A stretch of 64,000 bases of DNA, taken from NCBI GenBank assembly GCA_006384855.1, contig VCJN01000094.1:1-64000 (forward strand), given 5' to 3'. Below, in pieces: positions 30,402 through 40,296 of this stretch. The position numbers were made by a program, and so were the translations under genes. This stretch comes from Tetraselmis striata. Taxonomy: Eukaryota; Chlorophyta; Chlorodendrophyceae; Chlorodendrales; Chlorodendraceae. The notes under the pieces were generated by a model. That model made no database searches. It saw nothing but the letters and a program-made list of their open reading frames with translations, and was not told where the DNA came from. Position 1 is the stretch's first letter; every line of letters begins with the position of its first letter.

Positions 30402-31633
30402 CCACACTACTGGTACAGGGTATCCTGGTAACCGGGACGTCGATTGACATCTGCTGTATATTGGGTAATGCAAATCGTACATCCGAAAGCACGAGTATTT
30501 TTGAATCTGCTTTAGTATTAATATTATTATCTTATTTAAATTGCCGATGACGAGTCGTCGTTAATTTTGAATGTATTTTTTGAATTTTTGAACGCAAACG
30601 CTCAGCTCTCGCAGGCTCGCCTCGTCCTGCCCCGATGGCCTGCCGCCTCGTGGCACTCTAGTCTGGGCGCGCTGACAGCTCAATCCCACAACACACGCCT
30701 TGGGCCAGACAAGCGACTACCGTCGGTGCCTGCTCTGGCCTGTCAGCAAAGTCCATCGGACTGCGGCACTCGGCGTGGTCCCCTGCGCCGTGTGGCGGAC
30801 TGGAGGCCTACTGCAGCCTCTAGACTACACTGACGAGCACGTCGCCCACGCGGCGCCAGGTGAACAATAGGGTCAGCAGGCTACTGTGCTGCGCTTTCCG
30901 CTCGTTGGGGCGTCCGAGCGGCTCCGACCCGGGGATGTGGAAGTACGAGAGAACCGCACCGCACCGTTGGCCGGATCGATCCCGACCCGGCGTCACGCCG
31001 CACCGCCCCGTTGGCCGGATCAGAAGCCGGCTCGTCGGGTGCAAGTACTCCGGCTAGGATTGTGCGAACACGAGTGGGCGGCTCACCCGCCCCAGCCAGG
31101 GGCGCCTCCGCTGCGCCCACGGAACGAACCGGGGGAGCTCGCATCGCTGCCCGCGGAAGCGCGGTTCACCGAGCCGGGTCGTCCGCGCAGCGAGTAGGCC
31201 GCACGTGCCGAGCAGGCCGGGTTGGGCTATCCGATCCCTCGGTCCCGTCCGTTGCAGCCTCAAGTTTGGGTTTCGGGCTGAGTGAGTTTCAGCCTGAAAC
31301 GGCGATCCCTGCCGGTCCCTTCGAGCTGAAAGGACTGCACTGCGCCACTGACCTCGTCATGGGCTCTTGGGACCGTAGGGTGGCTCAGGGTACTGAAAGC
31401 GCAACATTCAGACGGAGTTGAGTTCAATGTGGGTTCGGTTCAGTGCCTTTAGCCCGAGCTTCGGTACTGAGTCGTACTGAATCATTCAGCCTTACGGTGA
31501 CTGACTGAAGTGCAGAAACAGCCTGCCTGTCTGGACATCAGGGTGCAGCCCACTGGCGGAGGGTGAGGACTTCTCACAGGAGCTACTGGCGGCTGGCTGG
31601 CTCGGAAGGGGTGGGGGGAGGGGGCGGAGCGGC
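30402..31633. other. intergenic region and promoter side of the BRCA1/BARD1-like gene
   Basis: GC-rich. A short duplicated motif, GTTGGCCGGATC, appears at about 30964 and 31009. Several Gln-Pro-Glu-rich open frames show no known motif. No RNA gene was seen. Confidence 0.4.
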
Positions 31634-34600
31634 ATGGCGGCGGCCTCGGCTGCTACTACCGGGGACTCGCCTGTGGCGGAGCGGGCCGCCGCAGGGGAGG
31701 AGGCGCTGCCAGAGGAGCTTGTCCGGCTGGGCAAGGAGCTGCAGTGCCCCATCTGGTGCGTGGGCGCGCAAGCTGTCGACACACAGCCACCCTGCGCGCC
31801 GAATGTAGTCACGCATGTGGTGTCTGGGTGTATGCTACGGAAGCGGGGGGGGGGGGGGGGGGGGGGCAGCATTCCTCTTCTTGGCCCGGATGTCTTGGCT
31901 CCCGCTGATCCATTTGCTCACACCCGCTGTGTTGCCCGTGCCCACCGCAGCCTGTGCATCCTCCAGCCGCCGACGGCCCGGCTGCCCTGCTGCCACTACT
32001 TCTGCCTGTGAGTCCCCCCGCCCCCATGTGCCTGACAGCGACACTCAGTCACCATAGCCCGCCTCGGCACATGCCGGGCGCAGATGCCCCCCCCCCCTCC
32101 CCCCCCCCCCCCCCCCCCCGCCCCATTTGCACCTGAGCTTGCTCCCTGCGCGGGATCCCTCCGGCCGGCCGACCGCCGCATGTGCCCTCCCCGCCGGCAG
32201 GGACTGCATCAACGAGTCCCTGAAGCACAAGACGGCATGCCCCAGCTGCAAGCTGTTTGCCCGCAAGCGCGACGTCATGCGCGACTTCAAGATCGATCGC
32301 GTGGCGACTCTGTACGCGCAGCTGGAGGCGGCGTCCGGGCAGTTTGTGTTCTGCTCGCCCGCATCCCGGCCCGCTGCCAACGCGCCGCCGCCCCAGCCCG
32401 CCGCCGCCGACGCCGCCGCTGCGGCCTTCGTGGTGCCGTCCCCGCCCGACAGCGAGTTCGAGACCGCCCGCGAGGACTTTGGCAACGCCGCGGAGGCGCC
32501 GGCGTTCCGCCTCTGGGCGGCCTCGCCCGCGGACGCGCCCGCCGCCCTGACGCAGGACTCGGCGCCCAGTGGCGCGCCCCCGCTCCTCAGCCAGCCGCCC
32601 TCCACAGCGGCGCGCCGCCAGCCCCCGCCTTCGGTGCGCCGCCGCCTGACCACTGACCCTTCCATTGTGCTCGTGGGTCGCACCATATGAACCGTCTTGT
32701 TCCATTGAGCCGGATACTCGTGCTGGTGTGTTCTGATATGTTTCTGGATGGGTTTGTTTTTTCGCAAGCGGCTCGGCGGCAATGCTATAGAGCGAACATA
32801 ATTTGGCGTGATTGCGGGTACGCTGAAGCAGTGATTACATTACCTTTGTATTATGCTGGAGGGTAATGCTGTGGATGCAGCATGCGCATGGCAGCAGGCT
32901 CTGATGCGCCGCTGTGCCCTGCGTGATGCCCCCCCCCCCCCCCCCCCTGCCTGGCAGGTGCGCCCCAACAAGCAACGCGGCGGCGCGAAAGAGACCCTCG
33001 CTGGCGGGCAGGATGCCGAGGGCGCCCAGTCGCCGCTGCTTGTGGAGGAGACGCCGCTCAGCGATGACGAGGGCGCCGCGGACCCCTCCCTGCCCGGCAG
33101 CAGCAAGGCCAAAGCCGCGAGGGAGGCCAAGGGGGAGGGGACGGCCCCCGCCGTGGACGCCCCCCCTGCTCCCCCTGCTACTGCTGTGGCAGCCGCCCGC
33201 GGCAGGAAGAGAGGCGCTGGCGGCATGGCGAGCGCAGCGGCCAAGAAGACGGCGCCGCCCGCGAAGCAGCGACAGCCCAGGTGGGGGAGAAGCTGATGAC
33301 ATGCCCCTCCCCGTGTGGCCATTACGCCACCCCCGGCCTGATCACACGCCATCCCCCCCCCCCCCCCCCCCCCCCCCCTCCTCTGCGCACCTTCAGAAGC
33401 GGCTGTACAAGCCAGTATCCCTCACCAGTCTGTGCAGCTGCTCTCATTGGACACTCTGCGCCCGCTGCTTGATGCGCCGCTCGGTGTAATGACGACACCA
33501 AGTTACCACCGAAATGCGTCGCTGAGTCGAGCCCCCCCGCCCGCCCCGTGCCGCGCGCGCCTCCCCCCGCAGGGCGCCTCTGCGAGACATCGACGTCTGC
33601 AGCAACAAGCCGCTGCTGCGCGCCGCCGCCGGCCCAGGCAAAGGTCCGCCGACCAGCGCACGCGCGCGCCGGGCCACCGGGGGGCGCCCGCCCGCCACGC
33701 CGGCCGCCAACTCGGGGCAGAAGCTCGCGCTGCCGGACAGCGCGCCGCCGCCGACGTCGAGCCGGCGCGTGCCGACGCGGCTGCAGCCGTGGGCGTGCCA
33801 CATGTGCACGCTGGAGAACGCCGGCACCGCCAAGAAATGCGCCGTCTGCGACGCCCCCAAGCTGCCCGCAGGCGCCGCGCGGCCGGAGCCGGGCGCCGCG
33901 CAGCGCACTGAGGCGAGCGCGGAGCAGGTGTCCCCATCCCCCCCCCCCCCCTCGGAGCCCGGGAGCGAATAGGGCGCTGCCCTGCACAAGAAGGGAAGCA
34001 ACCGTGTCTGTGTATATACACACATATAGTTGTATGTATATAAACATGTATAAAACATACACACATATATGTGTATATACACATATATACATATATACAT
34101 GTTTTTCATTTGCTTTACTTATATTTGTATATTTATATATACTCCTGTGGCACACTGTTGCTCTGGTAGATTTCCATATCAAACGTACACTTCTCTGTCG
34201 TCGCGAGGGATAGAAAACAGCAGCGTATAGCCGACTGAAGAAATGGTGCTGGTTCGGACGTCGATCACCCGCTGCCGCGTCGTTTGCCCTGTCTGCTGTG
34301 CCCTGGATGGGCCTCAGTGTGACGATGGACCCGCCGGGCCGCGGCGCAGGAACCCGAGTGCCCGCCGCTGGAGCTGGAGCGTCGCTTTGTGGACGGCGAG
34401 GGCGGCGGCCCCGCTGGCGGCGGTGCCCCCGGCAAGGCACGTGCCCGCAAGGGCCCCGGGAAGGCCCCAAAGCGCCGTGCGGACGCGGAGCCCAAAGGTG
34501 CGGCCGGGCCTGCGGCAGCTCTCCCGCCCTCCTCCGCTCCGTGGTCACATGTAGAACATCGCGAATGTTGTTATAGGCTGCAGGCAAGCTTGTGATACGG

Positions 34601-37600
34601 GTTCTTATAGGCGCGTCGGTGCCTGCGTGTCTAAGTGTCTGGTGTGGCGCAGGATTGGGTATATACATATGTATACAAACATTTGTGTGTGTGTGTGGGG
34701 GGGGGGGGGGGGGGGTCGCAGACATAGATACAAACATACGTGCACAGACACGTACATGCAAGCGTGAAGCTTTCACACGACGTCCGCACGTTGGGGCCGC
34801 CCGGCGCCGTCCAGGCAACCGCTGCTCGGGCCGGGAGCGTCTGTCCTGGCTTTCCTCCATGTGGCGGTACCTCTCCCGCGCTGCTGCTGGCCGCGCCCGT
34901 CGTCACGCCGTTTCCGCTGACGCCATGCCGACCGCCGCGCACCGCCGTGTCACCGCAGGCGGGCCAAGAGGCAAGAGCCGGAAGAGTGCGGCAGCGGATG
35001 CGGGCGGTGCGTCGGCGTCGGCGGCAGTCGAGCCTCCGGTGGCGGTGTCGGGCCCGGAGGAGGCCGCCAAGAGCGCCGACAAACGTGACGCCAACGGCGG
35101 CGGGAAGGCCGGCGCGTCCCCGGGCCGTGTCGCAGCGGGCAGCGGCCCTGCGGCGGACGTCGAGGCGGCGCCAGCGGCGGCGGGCGCCGACCCGGAGCCG
35201 GCAGCCGAGGCGGCCCCGCAGACTCACGTCGCCGCCAATGTCGCGGCGGCCAGGCGCAGTGCCGCCGGAGGGAAGAAGAAGCCGCGCACCTCCCCACCGG
35301 CTGCCGCGCCCGCCGCCCCCTCGCCGGCATCGGACGGCAGCGCTGGCGCGGAGGAGGGCGCCCCGGCGGCTGGCGGCAGCATGGCGGCCAAGAAGGCTGC
35401 GAAGGCCGCTGTGGGCGGCACCGGCGGCCTCAGGTGGGAGCGCTCCATGAGGGGCTCCTGGATCCTGCTGAGCTCCGGTACGCTCCCCCCCCCCCCCCCC
35501 CCCCCCAACATTCGCATGCTGCGCTATGCCATGCGGGGTTCTCATAGCTTCCTGGCGCCGGCGCGGCAATAAGAACCTTCCCTACCTGCCTGAGGTCAGA
35601 CGTAGACGAAACTTCTAGGGGATGTTCTTACATGTTGTACGCAGGCCCGATCCGAGGCTTAAGTTCAGAGTTCTCGTTATGGGTGCGTCGGTCCCGGAGA
35701 TCATTCGGAATGCGCTCTGTATCGCCGCCGGCACGCGCGGACGCTTTGTCTCGGTACATCCGGCTCCGCCCGCCGGCTAGGGGTGCGTCCCGCGTCTGAG
35801 GCTGGCGCGCGCCGTGACCGCCTCGCGCAGGCCTGGAGGACGACATGGACCGGGAGAACCTGCACGCGCTGGCGGCGGCCTCGGGCGCGCAGGTGGTGGG
35901 CAGCTGGGGCGGCAGCGTCACGCACGTGGTGTGCCACGTGGGCGAGGACGGGCGCGCCAAGCGGACGGCCAAGTACATGCACGGCATCCTCGAGGTCCGC
36001 CCCGCTGCGTTGAGGGGAGGCCCGCCCGCCGCGGATGTGTAGTGTCTGTGGGGGGGGAGGGGGCTTCACGTGTACCGTAGCACCGCCTTTGGTTTTGCTG
36101 TACATTAGTGCTGTGCCCCCCTTATCATCATGATTAGCCTCCTTGTATTGCACGCCAGATGTCAAAACGTTCGCTTTCGGTCCGCTTTAGCTTCGTCCGA
36201 ATGAGACTATTGGCGGGCAGGGCAGGCTCCCACTCGCAGCGTTTGTCTTATTCGTCCTGCCTCGGTGCACCTGTACTCTTTTCGTGTCGTAATTTGTCAG
36301 AAAACACCACGAAAATAACGCGGAAAACCGATTTATCCGTCGACGCGCTGCTCTTCCCCGGACTTTTGACCAGTGCGGAGCCTCCAAAGGGTTTAGGGTA
36401 TATAAAAACCCTAGATCCCGTTAACCTTAAACCGAAGCCCGAAACCCCTCAAACGCACCCTGAGCCGGCAGGCGCTCTGGAGGACGTGATCTGCGCGAGG
36501 GATGGGATGGGATGGGTGTGGAGGGTGGGGAAGAAGACTAGAAAGGGAGGGGCGGAGAGGGCTAACAGGGGGGGGGGGGGGGGGGTGTTGCTTGGTCGCT
36601 GTCTCAGCGTTGGCACCGCATGCGCATGCGTGGCTGGGGCCGCAGGGCGCCTGGGTGGTGAGCGCCAAGTGGATGACCGCCTGCCTCCTGGCGGGCGGCC
36701 CCGTCCCGGAAAAAGAGTACGAGGTGCACCCCCCCTCCTTCCCCCCCCCTCCCCTTCCACCCTCCTCCGTTCCCCCCTTCCCCCTTCCCCAGCCGTTCCC
36801 TGTGGCAGTGCCGGGCATCCTTCCGGCGCTGAGGCGCCGCGCTGCGGTGGGCACCTGGCGGTGCAGGTGGTGGGCGACACGGCCGGCGGGACGGGCGGCC
36901 CGCGGAAGGGGCGCGCCCGCCGGGAGGCCAACCAGCCCAAGCTGCTCAGCGGAAAGGACGTCGTGCTGCACGGTGCGCCCCCCCCTCCCCCTTCCGCCCA
37001 TCTCGTCGTCTTCTTGTTCTCGCACCGATGAGGAAACCGCAACCAAGAGTGACGCGTCATCGTTCGCTGGCCGCGTAAAGTCATCCGATTTCGGTGATGA
37101 TGATGATGGGGAGGGGGAGGAGGAGATAATGAACGCGTGTTTGGGTCGCCCACTTGGATAGCTGACGGTGAGGATGGGGAAAAAGTACATCCATAACAGT
37201 GCATCGTGGTTTTCTTCCTGCGCGCGGCGAAGATTGGATTTTGCGAGGGAGTCTCAAGTTGTTTCGCCGGTCCCTTGTGCGCACCGTGTGGGGATGTCAT
37301 GCGGTGCTGGGCAGAGAACGGGGCGGGGTAGAGCGAGAGAGAGGGGGGGGGGGGGGGGGAGAGGGAGAGGCCTTCTTCCGCGCCCTGCGGAGGGGCGCGA
37401 GACCCCTAACCTCCGCCCCCCTCCCTTCCCCTGGCGGCGCAACCAGGCTCCTTTTCCTCCAGGGAGGCGGTCAAAGCCATCGTCACCGCCGCGGGCGGCC
37501 ACCTCCTGACGCGCATCGCGCCGGCAGCCATGGCAGAGGTGCGTCGGCGCGTGCGCCCCCCGTGGCCTTGGGGCGCATGCAACAGTAGATGCGCATCAGG

Positions 37601-37892
37601 ATGAGGCACCGTCGATTGCTGGCGGCAGTGCACCTTGGCGGCCGGAACCACGCCGCGAGTCGGTCGATTGCTGCGCTGACGGCGGGCCGCCTGCTGCCCG
37701 GGCTGGTGTGCCCCCCCCCCCCAGGAGTCGCTGGTGGTGATCTGCGAGAGCAAGCCGGCGGGCGGCGGCGGGCGGCGGGGCGGCGGCCACGACAGCGGCG
37801 CCGCCCCCGCGGCGGTGTGCCTCAACTGGCTGATGGACTCCGTGGGCGCGCACCAGCTGCGGCCGATGGAGCGCTACCGCCTGCAGGCATAG
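31634..37892 (+). CDS. BRCA1/BARD1-like protein: RING, RanBP2-type zinc finger, tandem BRCT
   Basis: Likely E3 ubiquitin ligase of homologous recombination or chromatin control. Twelve exons with consistent phases give 865 residues: 31634-31755, 31951-32007, 32201-32666, 32958-33280, 33573-33927, 34350-34497, 34959-35477, 35831-35994, 36646-36723, 36867-36972, 37447-37538 and 37725-37892. The RING ligands are C38, C41, C54, H56, C59, C62, C73 and C76; C41 is created across the first splice junction. A DRVATLYAQLEAASG segment follows, as in plant BRCA1. A RanBP2 finger uses W396, C398, C401, C412 and C415. BRCT1 (about 655-745) has SSGL, THVV and W727; BRCT2 (about 765-865) has the GPRKGR linker and W845. 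The middle is low-complexity Ala/Pro/Lys. Plant BRCA1/BARD1 have an extended PHD before BRCT; I see none here, and the RanBP2 finger is unexpected. BRCA1 versus BARD1 cannot be decided without a tree. Confidence 0.85.
32087..32119 (+). repeat. poly-C tract in intron 2 of the BRCA1/BARD1-like gene
   Basis: About 33 nt, almost all C. Similar sense-strand runs lie at 32929-32947, 33353-33378 and 35485-35506 in later introns. Confidence 0.9.
36388..36415. repeat. inverted telomere-type motifs in a BRCA1/BARD1-like intron
   Basis: GGGTTTAGGGTATA followed by AAAACCCTAG, a short inverted pair of telomere-type motifs in the intron before exon 9. Confidence 0.6.
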
Positions 37893-40296
37893 CGTAGCGG
37901 CGCCCGACTGCGCCGGGCCGGCACGGCGCCTCTCCTGGAGGACACGAGAGCAGCACCCCTCACAATGGCCAACGTGCCGAGGGGCGTGTGTGTTGATGGG
38001 GGGGGGGGGGTCCCTGTTTAGATTGAGATGCGAGTTGCAGATTAAGACGGTTGAAAGTTGAGAGTGTGGGGTTGTGCGGTGTTCTGCTTGCGCAGGCAAA
38101 CAGAGGGCGTGATTGGTGTAGAAGTTGTGCTGTAATCCATTGCCACCATCACCAAGCATCCATCATCATCAATGCACCCCCAATCACAGGCGCCCTGTCC
38201 GGAGACTCGAGTCGCCTATCCGCATTACCGCCTGTCATGATGGGCGACACTGAGCGTTGAATATCTGGGGCGCGACTGGGGCCGTCCTCTGTCCCGGGAT
38301 TATTTACATTGATGTCCTATTATTAGTACTATTTGTTAATACGTTAGTACGTTTAGTGCTATTAGTATTTATTGTATATACAGTCGACGGCGAAACATAC
38401 ACTATCCCACAAAAGTACTTACAATTTTACATGTTTCACGGGTGCAAATTCAATTGCGCCGTGTGTAGTCTCTAAATGATAGCCGGTATACAAACCCGCA
38501 CAGCAGCGCGGCGTACTCGTAGTGTGATACATATGGGCTATAATGCAAACCATGTGTGTGATTGAGTAGTGCTGGAGCGCTGCATGCAGGCATGGCAATG
38601 TTATTCTGCCACGGCGAAGTACTTAAGGGGCATTGTCAATTACTTATTCCCCCGTAACAGTGATGATAGCTGCCGCAGAGATATTCGTCGAGTTTTCCAT
38701 CGCTACTCCCTTGCTGTTTGGCGCGTGGTGTGGCCCGTGGTAAGCTAGCGCGCAGGTCGTGTGTGGCATACGTAACCTGGCAACTAACCTGGATGTTTGC
38801 CTGTTTGCACAAATCAGCCATAAGATTTGCGCAATAGCGACCCGGCAGATATTCTAAACAACGTATTATTTGATCACGTGCTGGCGAGCAGTCTTTATCA
38901 GAGAGCGTTGCTGACTTGCTGGCGGGCGTTCAACTGTTAACGGTGCGCAGTGTACTGCTCGTGGATGAAAGCTCGGGCGCAGGAGCCGGTCACTGCAACG
39001 CTGCATTCGGCGCGTGCGGATGTCAAACCTGTCAACGCCAGTTGCCCCCCCCCCCCCCCCCCCCCCCCCCTCGGCCAGCCCCAATCACCGCATTTTTATG
39101 TAGCCACGCTCATGACGGGGGCGCATAATTACGATGTCTATATACGCTACGAGTACGTGTACGATGTGTGTACCTGAGGTTACAAGGAATATATGTACGA
39201 TGTCACGCTGCCGGGTGGCCAGCGTTGTGTTTTGAGGCAGATGTCGCTTCGATTGTTATTCCCACATGATGAGCCCGTGTGATAGGTAGACTGATAGCGC
39301 CGCCCACTTGTCGCGTGCTTCCGTATGCTGCGAAGACCTTTTGCTGGATGCCCGGGCTCCACGTCATGGCCAAGTGGTACTCAGCACCTTCGCCCCTTGG
39401 GTTCTGCTGTGCGACATGTCCCACCACCTGCATGAAGACCAGTGCATTGGTTTCGGAGCGTTTGGCGAAGCGACGAGCCTGTGCTTAGCAGCCCATGGTT
39501 CAGGTGATGTCAGCACGCTTGCACCCGCCGCGGAATGGAAAGCTCTACTATGTGTAGGCTACTTTCATCACCCAGCAGCGGCACAGAGTTCATTGGGAAC
39601 AATACATACCGCGTGTCGTCTTGCATTTGCTTTGCTGCGCCCGGAAATTGTAAGTAATGCTCACCTACCGTGCACACCACTACACCGGACATCTGCATTT
39701 ATATAATTGGCACACTCGGATATCAACGGCATGCATAAGCGCAGCAACGGTAAGTACCTGCATTGCGTGCGCTCAAATTCAGGTGTCCCGCAGTCCATGC
39801 CCGTACACACATAATGTATACGCCCAGCCAGCACGGAAGCACGCGCGCATAGGCGACGTAGGGCGGCTGCTGCACCGCCAACAGGCTGTTATTTCACATG
39901 TATGCTGCATCGCCGTCTTTTCACTTGGCAAGTCCATCTTTCCCGTGCTCAGCAACAACGGCCGCTCCCGGAGAAAACCTTCTTGCAAGTGCACCGATGT
40001 ACTATGGGACGGCCGTCTCCTGAGCGTGGGAGGCTTGCACACGAGTAGTGTGGAGAATGCAAGGCCGAATGTACGGGGTACACAGGTCTCTGTGGACAGG
40101 TGTAATTCAAACTTTCAGCGCCACGCGGGCGGTCCTCCGGCAGCGGGTGTGAGGCCTGCACCAGAGGGAACCTGCCCGCGGGAAAGCATTACTTGTTGTC
40201 TTGTTGGAATCCTTATGCAAAACAGCGAGCGAGCCAGCGGCCATTCCGCTTATCGTGTGCATTATCCTCCGCCGTCATCCGCAGGCGGGTAAATAA
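37893..40296. other. convergent intergenic region, 2.4 kb
   Basis: Separates the 3' ends of the BRCA1/BARD1-like gene and NSN1. AT-richer around 38280-38480. A poly-C run lies at 39045-39070. Open stretches around 39200-39700 (minus) encode phrases such as EYHLAMTWSPGIQQKVFAAY, which look more protein-like than chance but match no family I can name. No RNA gene was recognised. Confidence 0.4.
38131..38135 (+). promoter_or_regulatory. TGTAA poly(A) signal of the BRCA1/BARD1-like gene
   Basis: TGTAA about 240 nt after the stop codon. Confidence 0.4.

Follow-up and report, generated by a model that had tools for sequence, protein, structure and literature searches.

A predicted BRCA1/BARD1-type protein of the green alga Tetraselmis striata with a RanBP2-type zinc finger between RING and BRCT

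Gene model and domain order

This work describes a gene at positions 31634-37892 on the + strand of a 64-kb stretch of Tetraselmis striata contig VCJN01000094.1 (contig C69; the whole stretch is called the window). Its predicted product is a RING protein of the BRCA1/BARD1 type that carries a RanBP2-type zinc finger. When rebuilt from the window DNA, 12 exons and 11 GT...AG introns give an in-frame model of 854 residues in which the sole stop is the last codon. The model is composed of an N-terminal RING, a low-complexity linker, the RanBP2-type finger, another low-complexity linker and a C-terminal tandem BRCT. The features are listed below with their coordinates, strand and content.

31634-31755, +, exon 1: start codon, N-terminal stretch and RING C38
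31951-32007, +, exon 2: RING C41-C59, the C41 codon being split with exon 1
32201-32633, +, exon 3: RING C62-C76 and first linker, with alternative donors after 32666 and 32672
32958-33280, +, exon 4: linker
33573-33927, +, exon 5: RanBP2-type finger
33787-33864, +, RanBP2/NZF-type zinc finger (Pfam PF00641), W385-C404, within exon 5
34350-34497, +, exon 6: linker
34959-35477, +, exon 7: linker and first strand of BRCT1
35831-35994, +, exon 8: BRCT1
36646-36723, +, exon 9: end of BRCT1
36867-36972, +, exon 10: inter-BRCT linker (GGPRKGRARRE) and start of BRCT2
37447-37538, +, exon 11: BRCT2
37725-37892, +, exon 12: end of BRCT2 and stop codon
38131-38135, +, TGTAA, candidate poly(A) signal, 239 bases after the stop

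TGTAA is taken here to be the green-algal poly(A) signal. The donor of exon 3 is ambiguous: it can lie after 32633, 32666 or 32672, each of which keeps the phase, and all three fall within the first linker. For exon 11, an acceptor before 37447 keeps the frame and yields a complete BRCT2, whereas one before 37463 breaks the frame.

A preliminary description of this locus had joined twelve exons without a phase conflict into a RING (C38-C76), a RanBP2-type finger and a tandem BRCT. The rebuilt model recovers both the joining and the order, in ligand positions as well as in Pfam matches. The gene is the same, whereas the earlier length of 865 residues and the numbering of the finger from W396 become 854 and W385, a shift of 11 residues, as an exon 3 donor after 32666 instead of 32633 would give.

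RING and BRCT domains

The RING has the ligands C38, C41, C54, H56, C59, C62, C73 and C76 (C3HC4) and C-P-I-C as its first zinc loop; its flanking helices were judged by eye. On the whole protein, Pfam places the RING at 37-77, the finger at 384-409, BRCT at 655-721 and BRCT_2 at 758-851, and the tandem BRCT extends over approximately 645-854. BRCT (2.4e-10) and BRCT_2 (2.9e-7) both exceed their curated cut-offs. Among the four BRCT models matched, PTCB-BRCT is likewise above its cut-off and RTT107_BRCT_5 is below. The RING matches zf-RING_2 at 1.1e-5 (26.0 bits, slightly below the cut-off of 27.3) and the BARD1-type zf-RING_6 at 20.3 bits (cut-off 35). The Pfam search, which had been suggested earlier as a check, is clear for the BRCTs, whereas the RING and the finger stay slightly under the curated line.

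A comparison of the BRCT region with PDB returned 36 sequences at E ≤ 0.1. BRCA1 or BARD1 accounts for 25 of them, each at 1.2e-8 or better, with BARD1 (1.8e-13) and BRCA1 (7e-13) as best matches. MDC1, TopBP1 and microcephalin make up the remaining 11, which start at 0.0058 (MDC1). With the next family this far behind, the BRCT matches bear out the BRCA1/BARD1-like nature that the preliminary description had assigned to the protein. The RING resembles a large number of RINGs in PDB, most closely a RING2-BMI1 chimera (4.7e-11), with BRCA1 at 6.7e-6 and BARD1 at 5.1e-5. The RING alone is insufficient to name the family, and it is RING plus tandem BRCT that place the predicted protein in the BRCA1/BARD1 type.

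The phosphopeptide-pocket residues S652, G653, R697 and K700 are in place. In a five-row BRCT alignment (two copies of this gene, a related gene on contig C1701, human BARD1 and human BRCA1) the Ser-Gly pair and the Lys are invariant in all five rows (columns S10, G11 and K58, corresponding to S652, G653 and K700). We take these three to be equivalent to S1655, G1656 and K1702 of BRCA1.

The genome searched is a 224-Mb assembly with 2903 contigs, in which Pfam families were sought in six frames. The source is green: an RbcL on contig C1177 has its best PDB match in entry 1gk8 (1044 bits), a Chlamydomonas structure, and land-plant entries score lower. Beyond the C1701 gene, 13 further sites match the window BRCT more weakly (E 0.04 to 0.99). 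Searches were also made in viral and prokaryotic collections that are not meant for eukaryotes. The window BRCT gave three pattern-matching stretches in viral contigs and 284 in prokaryotic genome contigs, and the five-row alignment gave seven in viral contigs; none was a relative. The RING gave 18 stretches in viral contigs, where two loci match only query residues 1-18, before the first RING cysteine, and these were dropped as chance matches.

The RanBP2-type finger and the missing accessory domains

The finger residues W385, C387, C390, N394, C401 and C404 fit W-x-C-x2-C-x3-N-x6-C-x2-C, and this is the sole match in the six frames of the window. The RanBP2-type signature is printed as W-X-C-X(2,4)-C-X3-N-X6-C-X2-C in a passage of PMC12383448. 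Pfam Zn_ribbon_RanBP matches the whole protein at 1.9e-5 with 24.3 bits, just below the cut-off of 27. The finger exceeds this cut-off when the genome is searched in six frames (30.5 bits, E 7.6e-5). Pfam and the exact signature agree that the finger of the preliminary description is real. Alignment-free folding of a 43-residue fragment that contains the finger gave a mean pLDDT (predicted local distance difference test) of 60.4, a low confidence. Genome-wide, PF00641 has 16 matches on nine contigs; none of these nine is among the 12 contigs with a BRCT match, in a BRCT search that misses even the window's own intron-split BRCT.

BRCA1 and BARD1 of Arabidopsis carry an extended PHD (ePHD) before the BRCTs, as described in a passage of PMC11014961, and a PHD in plant BRCA1 is mentioned in passages of PMC4009792 and PMC8483008. 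Outside the finger, the two linkers of the window protein hold three Cys and one His, too few for a plant-type extended PHD. The corresponding family PF13771 has 11 genome matches at E ≤ 0.001 in six frames, none of them on C69, C351 (the contig of the second copy) or C1701. An ePHD hidden in the linkers was rejected on both counts, and the preliminary description, which could not find this domain, is borne out. We also considered whether the true orthologue of plant type might be a different gene. No contig carries both an ePHD match and a BRCT match, and the idea was dropped, although this argument is weak because a six-frame search loses intron-split domains. No ankyrin family is among the 11 Pfam families that match the whole protein at E ≤ 1.

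A second copy of the gene

Contig C351 carries a second copy that is 93.3% identical to C69 over 9 kb and that resembles either an allele from the second haplotype of a diploid or a recently duplicated gene. Matches with equal or near-equal scores were observed on the contig pairs C69/C351, C690/C1373 and C2419/C1412, as if diploid haplotypes had been assembled apart.

The C351 copy retains GT and AG at all 11 introns, the reading frame and the finger. Exons of the two copies are 96.6-100% identical, and the nine gapped positions in the coding sequence (three extra residues) all lie in exon 4. For the introns the identity is 88.9-99.4%, gaps amount to 240 positions and 189 of 3578 aligned sites (5.3%) differ. 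Coding changes fall on codon positions 1, 2 and 3 in numbers of 8, 6 and 20. Per site, nonsynonymous and synonymous differences amount to pN 0.0080 and pS 0.0278, a ratio of 0.29. Codons with an amino-acid change number 15, against a mean of 26.7 under random placing, and none of 2000 shuffles was as low. Amino-acid changes between the copies are suppressed over the whole coding sequence. The finger exon shows one nonsynonymous change (V403I) and no synonymous one; with so few changes per exon, constraint on the finger alone cannot be claimed from these counts.

The candidate poly(A) signal at 38131 is the only + strand TGTAA in 31000-39000 that is present in both copies, whereas a TGTAA at 33485 occurs in the window copy alone. 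Runs of at least 10 C or G bases are found in 10 of the 11 introns of the gene and in none of its 12 exons. The whole window has 31 such runs (20 of C, 11 of G), 11 of them inside the gene (31756-37724), and they are possibly a general intron feature of this genome. Together, the splice sites, the frame, the constraint, the shared TGTAA and the intron runs favour a single predicted gene. The junctions 33280/33573 and 33927/34350 rest on the frame and the second copy.

A related RING-BRCT gene on contig C1701

A search of the genome with the window BRCT found a further BRCA1/BARD1-like gene with RING and BRCT (E 4.8e-4), on the minus strand of C1701 at 117661-123011. Its RING exon, a Tudor-like stretch and its BRCT exons lie in this order on one strand within approximately 5.4 kb. 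The RING matches zf-RING_UBOX at 9.3e-9 and zf-RING_6 at 32.2 bits (cut-off 35), and is about equally near to BRCA1 and BARD1. The BRCT matches PF00533 at 3.6e-9 and is nearer to BRCA1 (6.2e-8) than to BARD1 (3.5e-3). A putative second BRCT was assigned visually, on the basis of how the exons are arranged and of matches extending beyond BRCT1 (1l0b, query 29-174). The six-frame genome search gave no RanBP2 finger (PF00641) match on C1701, and no second copy of this gene was found in the genome to check its model against.

The Tudor-like stretch matches PDB entry 7de9 at 5.8e-4 over 26 residues, with eight unrelated chains next at 0.025 or worse, and matches no Pfam family. A fuller RDM15-type Tudor lies in an open frame on contig C1314 (locus L053, 3249-3902, +). 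It is 34% identical to the C1701 stretch (pairwise E 4e-14) and matches 7de9 at 1.0e-4, which supports the link between the C1701 stretch and the RDM15 Tudor. According to passages of PMC13361950, 7DE9 is the Tudor of RDM15, which recognises histone H3 monomethylated at lysine 4 (H3K4me1), and this mark recruits MSH6 and PDS5C via Tudor domains.

Two further pieces, similar to each other and both on the minus strand (C964:90454-90567 and C12:10012-10185), are each 81% identical over 84 aligned bases to part of the C1701 RING exon. Their RING pieces lie in different frames, and they are either remnants or part of a further, intron-containing gene.

Proposed function and alternative explanations

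We propose, with a probability of roughly 0.55, that the window gene encodes a BRCA1/BARD1-type RING subunit of an E3 ubiquitin ligase, in which the finger would bind ubiquitin, the RING would pair with the C1701 protein and the BRCTs would dock at damage. As family members do, the RING of the window protein would form the ligase with the RING-BRCT protein of C1701, and the BRCTs, judged by their pocket residues, would dock on phosphoserine partners at damage. The finger would then bind ubiquitin on chromatin or on products of the ligase and keep the enzyme at sites that carry ubiquitin. The ankyrin repeats and BRCTs of animal BARD1 read histone H2A ubiquitylated at lysine 15 (H2AK15ub), as stated in a passage of PMC10639053. 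In the alga, ubiquitin would be contacted by the finger, a fold other than this ankyrin-BRCT unit, and the Tudor of the C1701 protein may add H3K4me1 reading. We read the two genes as a putative BRCA1/BARD1-type pair with lineage-specific readers, and this repair enzyme may locate its targets in another way in the algal lineage concerned. A more specific version, in which both members of the pair are without the plant ePHD, one bears an NZF finger and the other an RDM15-type Tudor, and the heterodimer reads ubiquitin and H3K4me1 together, is rather unlikely. If true, it would be a natural fusion of H3K4me1-guided repair, as in plant MSH6 and PDS5C, with the E3 activity of homologous recombination.

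For the ligand, we favour ubiquitin over a Ran-like partner, and both over RNA. Ubiquitin reading is favoured because the best single-finger chain in PDB is that of RNF31/HOIP (2.6e-5), while RNA-type chains score 0.005 or worse; TRABID matches at 7.5e-4. Thr391 is retained after the second Cys, and V403 stands at a later place that we presume to be a hydrophobic contact. The ubiquitin-binding (NZF) branch is marked by a Thr-Phe pair whose Phe is critical for ubiquitin binding, according to a passage of PMC12383448.

Several points weigh against the proposal. In the finger, the Phe of the Thr-Phe pair is replaced by Leu392, and V403 is Ile in the C351 copy. The top summed scores belong to multi-finger RanBP2 (1.8e-16) and to Nup153 with two fingers (3.3e-8); the best single fingers within that RanBP2 match stand at 0.15 and 0.31. 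Single-finger chains of RanBP2 (3.8e-4) and Nup153 (8.2e-4) are about equal to TRABID, and the ubiquitin binders TAB3 (0.028) and NPL4 (0.095) score below them. The scores are split as to which animal protein is the counterpart, the BRCT being slightly nearer to BARD1 and the RING slightly nearer to BRCA1. As for the presumed partner, Pfam recognises just one BRCT in C1701, its Tudor exons fail to join in frame via an obvious GT donor, and one Tudor-matching stretch reads through a TGA.

It is quite possible, at somewhat less than even odds, that the finger is an ancestral, routine feature of chlorophyte BRCA1/BARD1 that has simply escaped description, which would be compatible with the proposed ubiquitin-reading ligase. 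The literature searched is silent either way. Nothing was obtained against this explanation; the passages on the Arabidopsis ePHD (PMC11014961) say nothing of algae.

An unlikely alternative is a nucleoporin-type finger whose ligand is not ubiquitin but another protein, for example Ran-GDP, to which the E3 would be tethered. Fingers that bind Ran are marked by a Leu-Val pair, and the window finger has Leu after Thr. The summed and single-finger scores of RanBP2 and Nup153 also speak for it, but the best single-finger chain is RNF31/HOIP, and Thr391 is the residue of the ubiquitin type (PMC12383448).

It is highly improbable that the model fuses two genes, of which the first (exons 1-3 or 1-4) would encode a short RING protein and the second a protein with the finger and the BRCTs. 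Without splicing, exon 3 reads on to a stop at 32690, and low-complexity linkers in DNA of 62-72% G+C (2-kb steps) make open frames weak evidence, as does an open frame of 526 codons on the opposite strand. The conserved splice sites at all 11 introns, the coding gap in a multiple of three, the amino-acid changes below random over the coding sequence as a whole, the shared TGTAA past the stop (that at 33485 occurring in one copy only) and the runs confined to introns stand against such a fusion. The opposite frame (33322-34902, minus strand) covers exons 5 and 6, has a low-complexity translation and is the longest among the 10 listed window frames of at least 330 codons; it is probably a product of the high G+C and warns that open frames prove little. 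Three other open reading frames of the window match no Pfam family at 0.01.

Binding of single-stranded RNA by the finger is the most improbable reading: one RanBP2-type branch does bind RNA (a passage of PMC12383448), but RBM10 (0.005), RBM5 (0.056) and ZRANB2 (0.35) score below the best ubiquitin and nucleoporin chains, and the finger differs from an RNA-like one of the same genome. The latter is the second of two RanBP2-type fingers in a protein on contig C210 (locus L005, 1291-2148, minus) and reads N-M-N-W-A-R-R-S-S-C, where the window finger has L-E-N-A-G-T-A-K-K-C. The contact places, which we take to be a Trp and two Arg, with N-W-A-R-R presumably as the look of an RNA binder, are Ala, Thr and Ala in the window finger. 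RNA binding was rejected on these scores and residues. The preliminary description had named ubiquitin or single-stranded RNA as possible ligands, of which the former now fits better and the latter worse.

The proposed ubiquitin-reading ligase matters for how BRCA1-BARD1 finds damaged chromatin, a task for which different modules are used: the BARD1 ankyrin-BRCT unit (H2AK15ub) in animals and the ePHD in plants. If a green alga has a third arrangement, the ubiquitin-type finger belonging to one protein and the Tudor-like stretch to the other, this would suggest a fixed RING plus BRCT core with a swapped chromatin reader, and would give small single domains for testing what the complex must read. 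The significance would shrink if many green algae have the finger and it has simply gone unreported.

Comparison with known systems

With the NZF fingers of RNF31/HOIP and TRABID, the window finger shares a single C4 finger, and with RNF31 the pattern W-A-C-x2-C-T-x-E-N; RNF31 has Thr-Phe where the window finger has Thr-Leu. RNF31 is a ligase of another type and TRABID a deubiquitinase, and neither is known to have a BRCT. The C1701 gene shares its matching stretch with the RDM15 Tudor (7DE9), but its putative Tudor is split by an intron with a provisional join. To our knowledge, RDM15 is not a RING-BRCT protein.

The window protein resembles animal BRCA1 in its RING, which is slightly nearer to BRCA1 than to BARD1, in Arg-Thr-x-Lys and in GD...GGPRKGRAR after BRCT1. 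We know of no zinc finger between RING and BRCT in animal BRCA1. With animal BARD1 it shares the best BRCT match in PDB and the pocket Ser-Gly and Thr-x-Lys. It differs from BARD1 in having a zinc finger and no ankyrin match, and in the C-P-I-C zinc loop, which resembles BRCA1 if the human BRCA1 and BARD1 loop sequences are as we assume.

Plant BRCA1 and BARD1 (Arabidopsis) have the same RING and tandem BRCT. The BRCA1/BARD1-type RING group of Arabidopsis counts two (a passage of PMC6118397), and at least two such genes are present here (C69/C351 and C1701). The plant proteins have an ePHD before the BRCTs, whereas the algal ones have the finger or, in C1701, the Tudor-like stretch. RING types were also surveyed in Chlamydomonas and Micromonas, in passages of PMC6118397 that do not give the domain order of BRCA1/BARD1. 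No report of a RING, RanBP2-type finger and BRCT architecture was found in the literature searched, outside which most subscription journals lie. The RING plus BRCT core itself is known from BRCA1/BARD1, and the predicted combination with this finger would be a third arrangement beside those of animals and plants.

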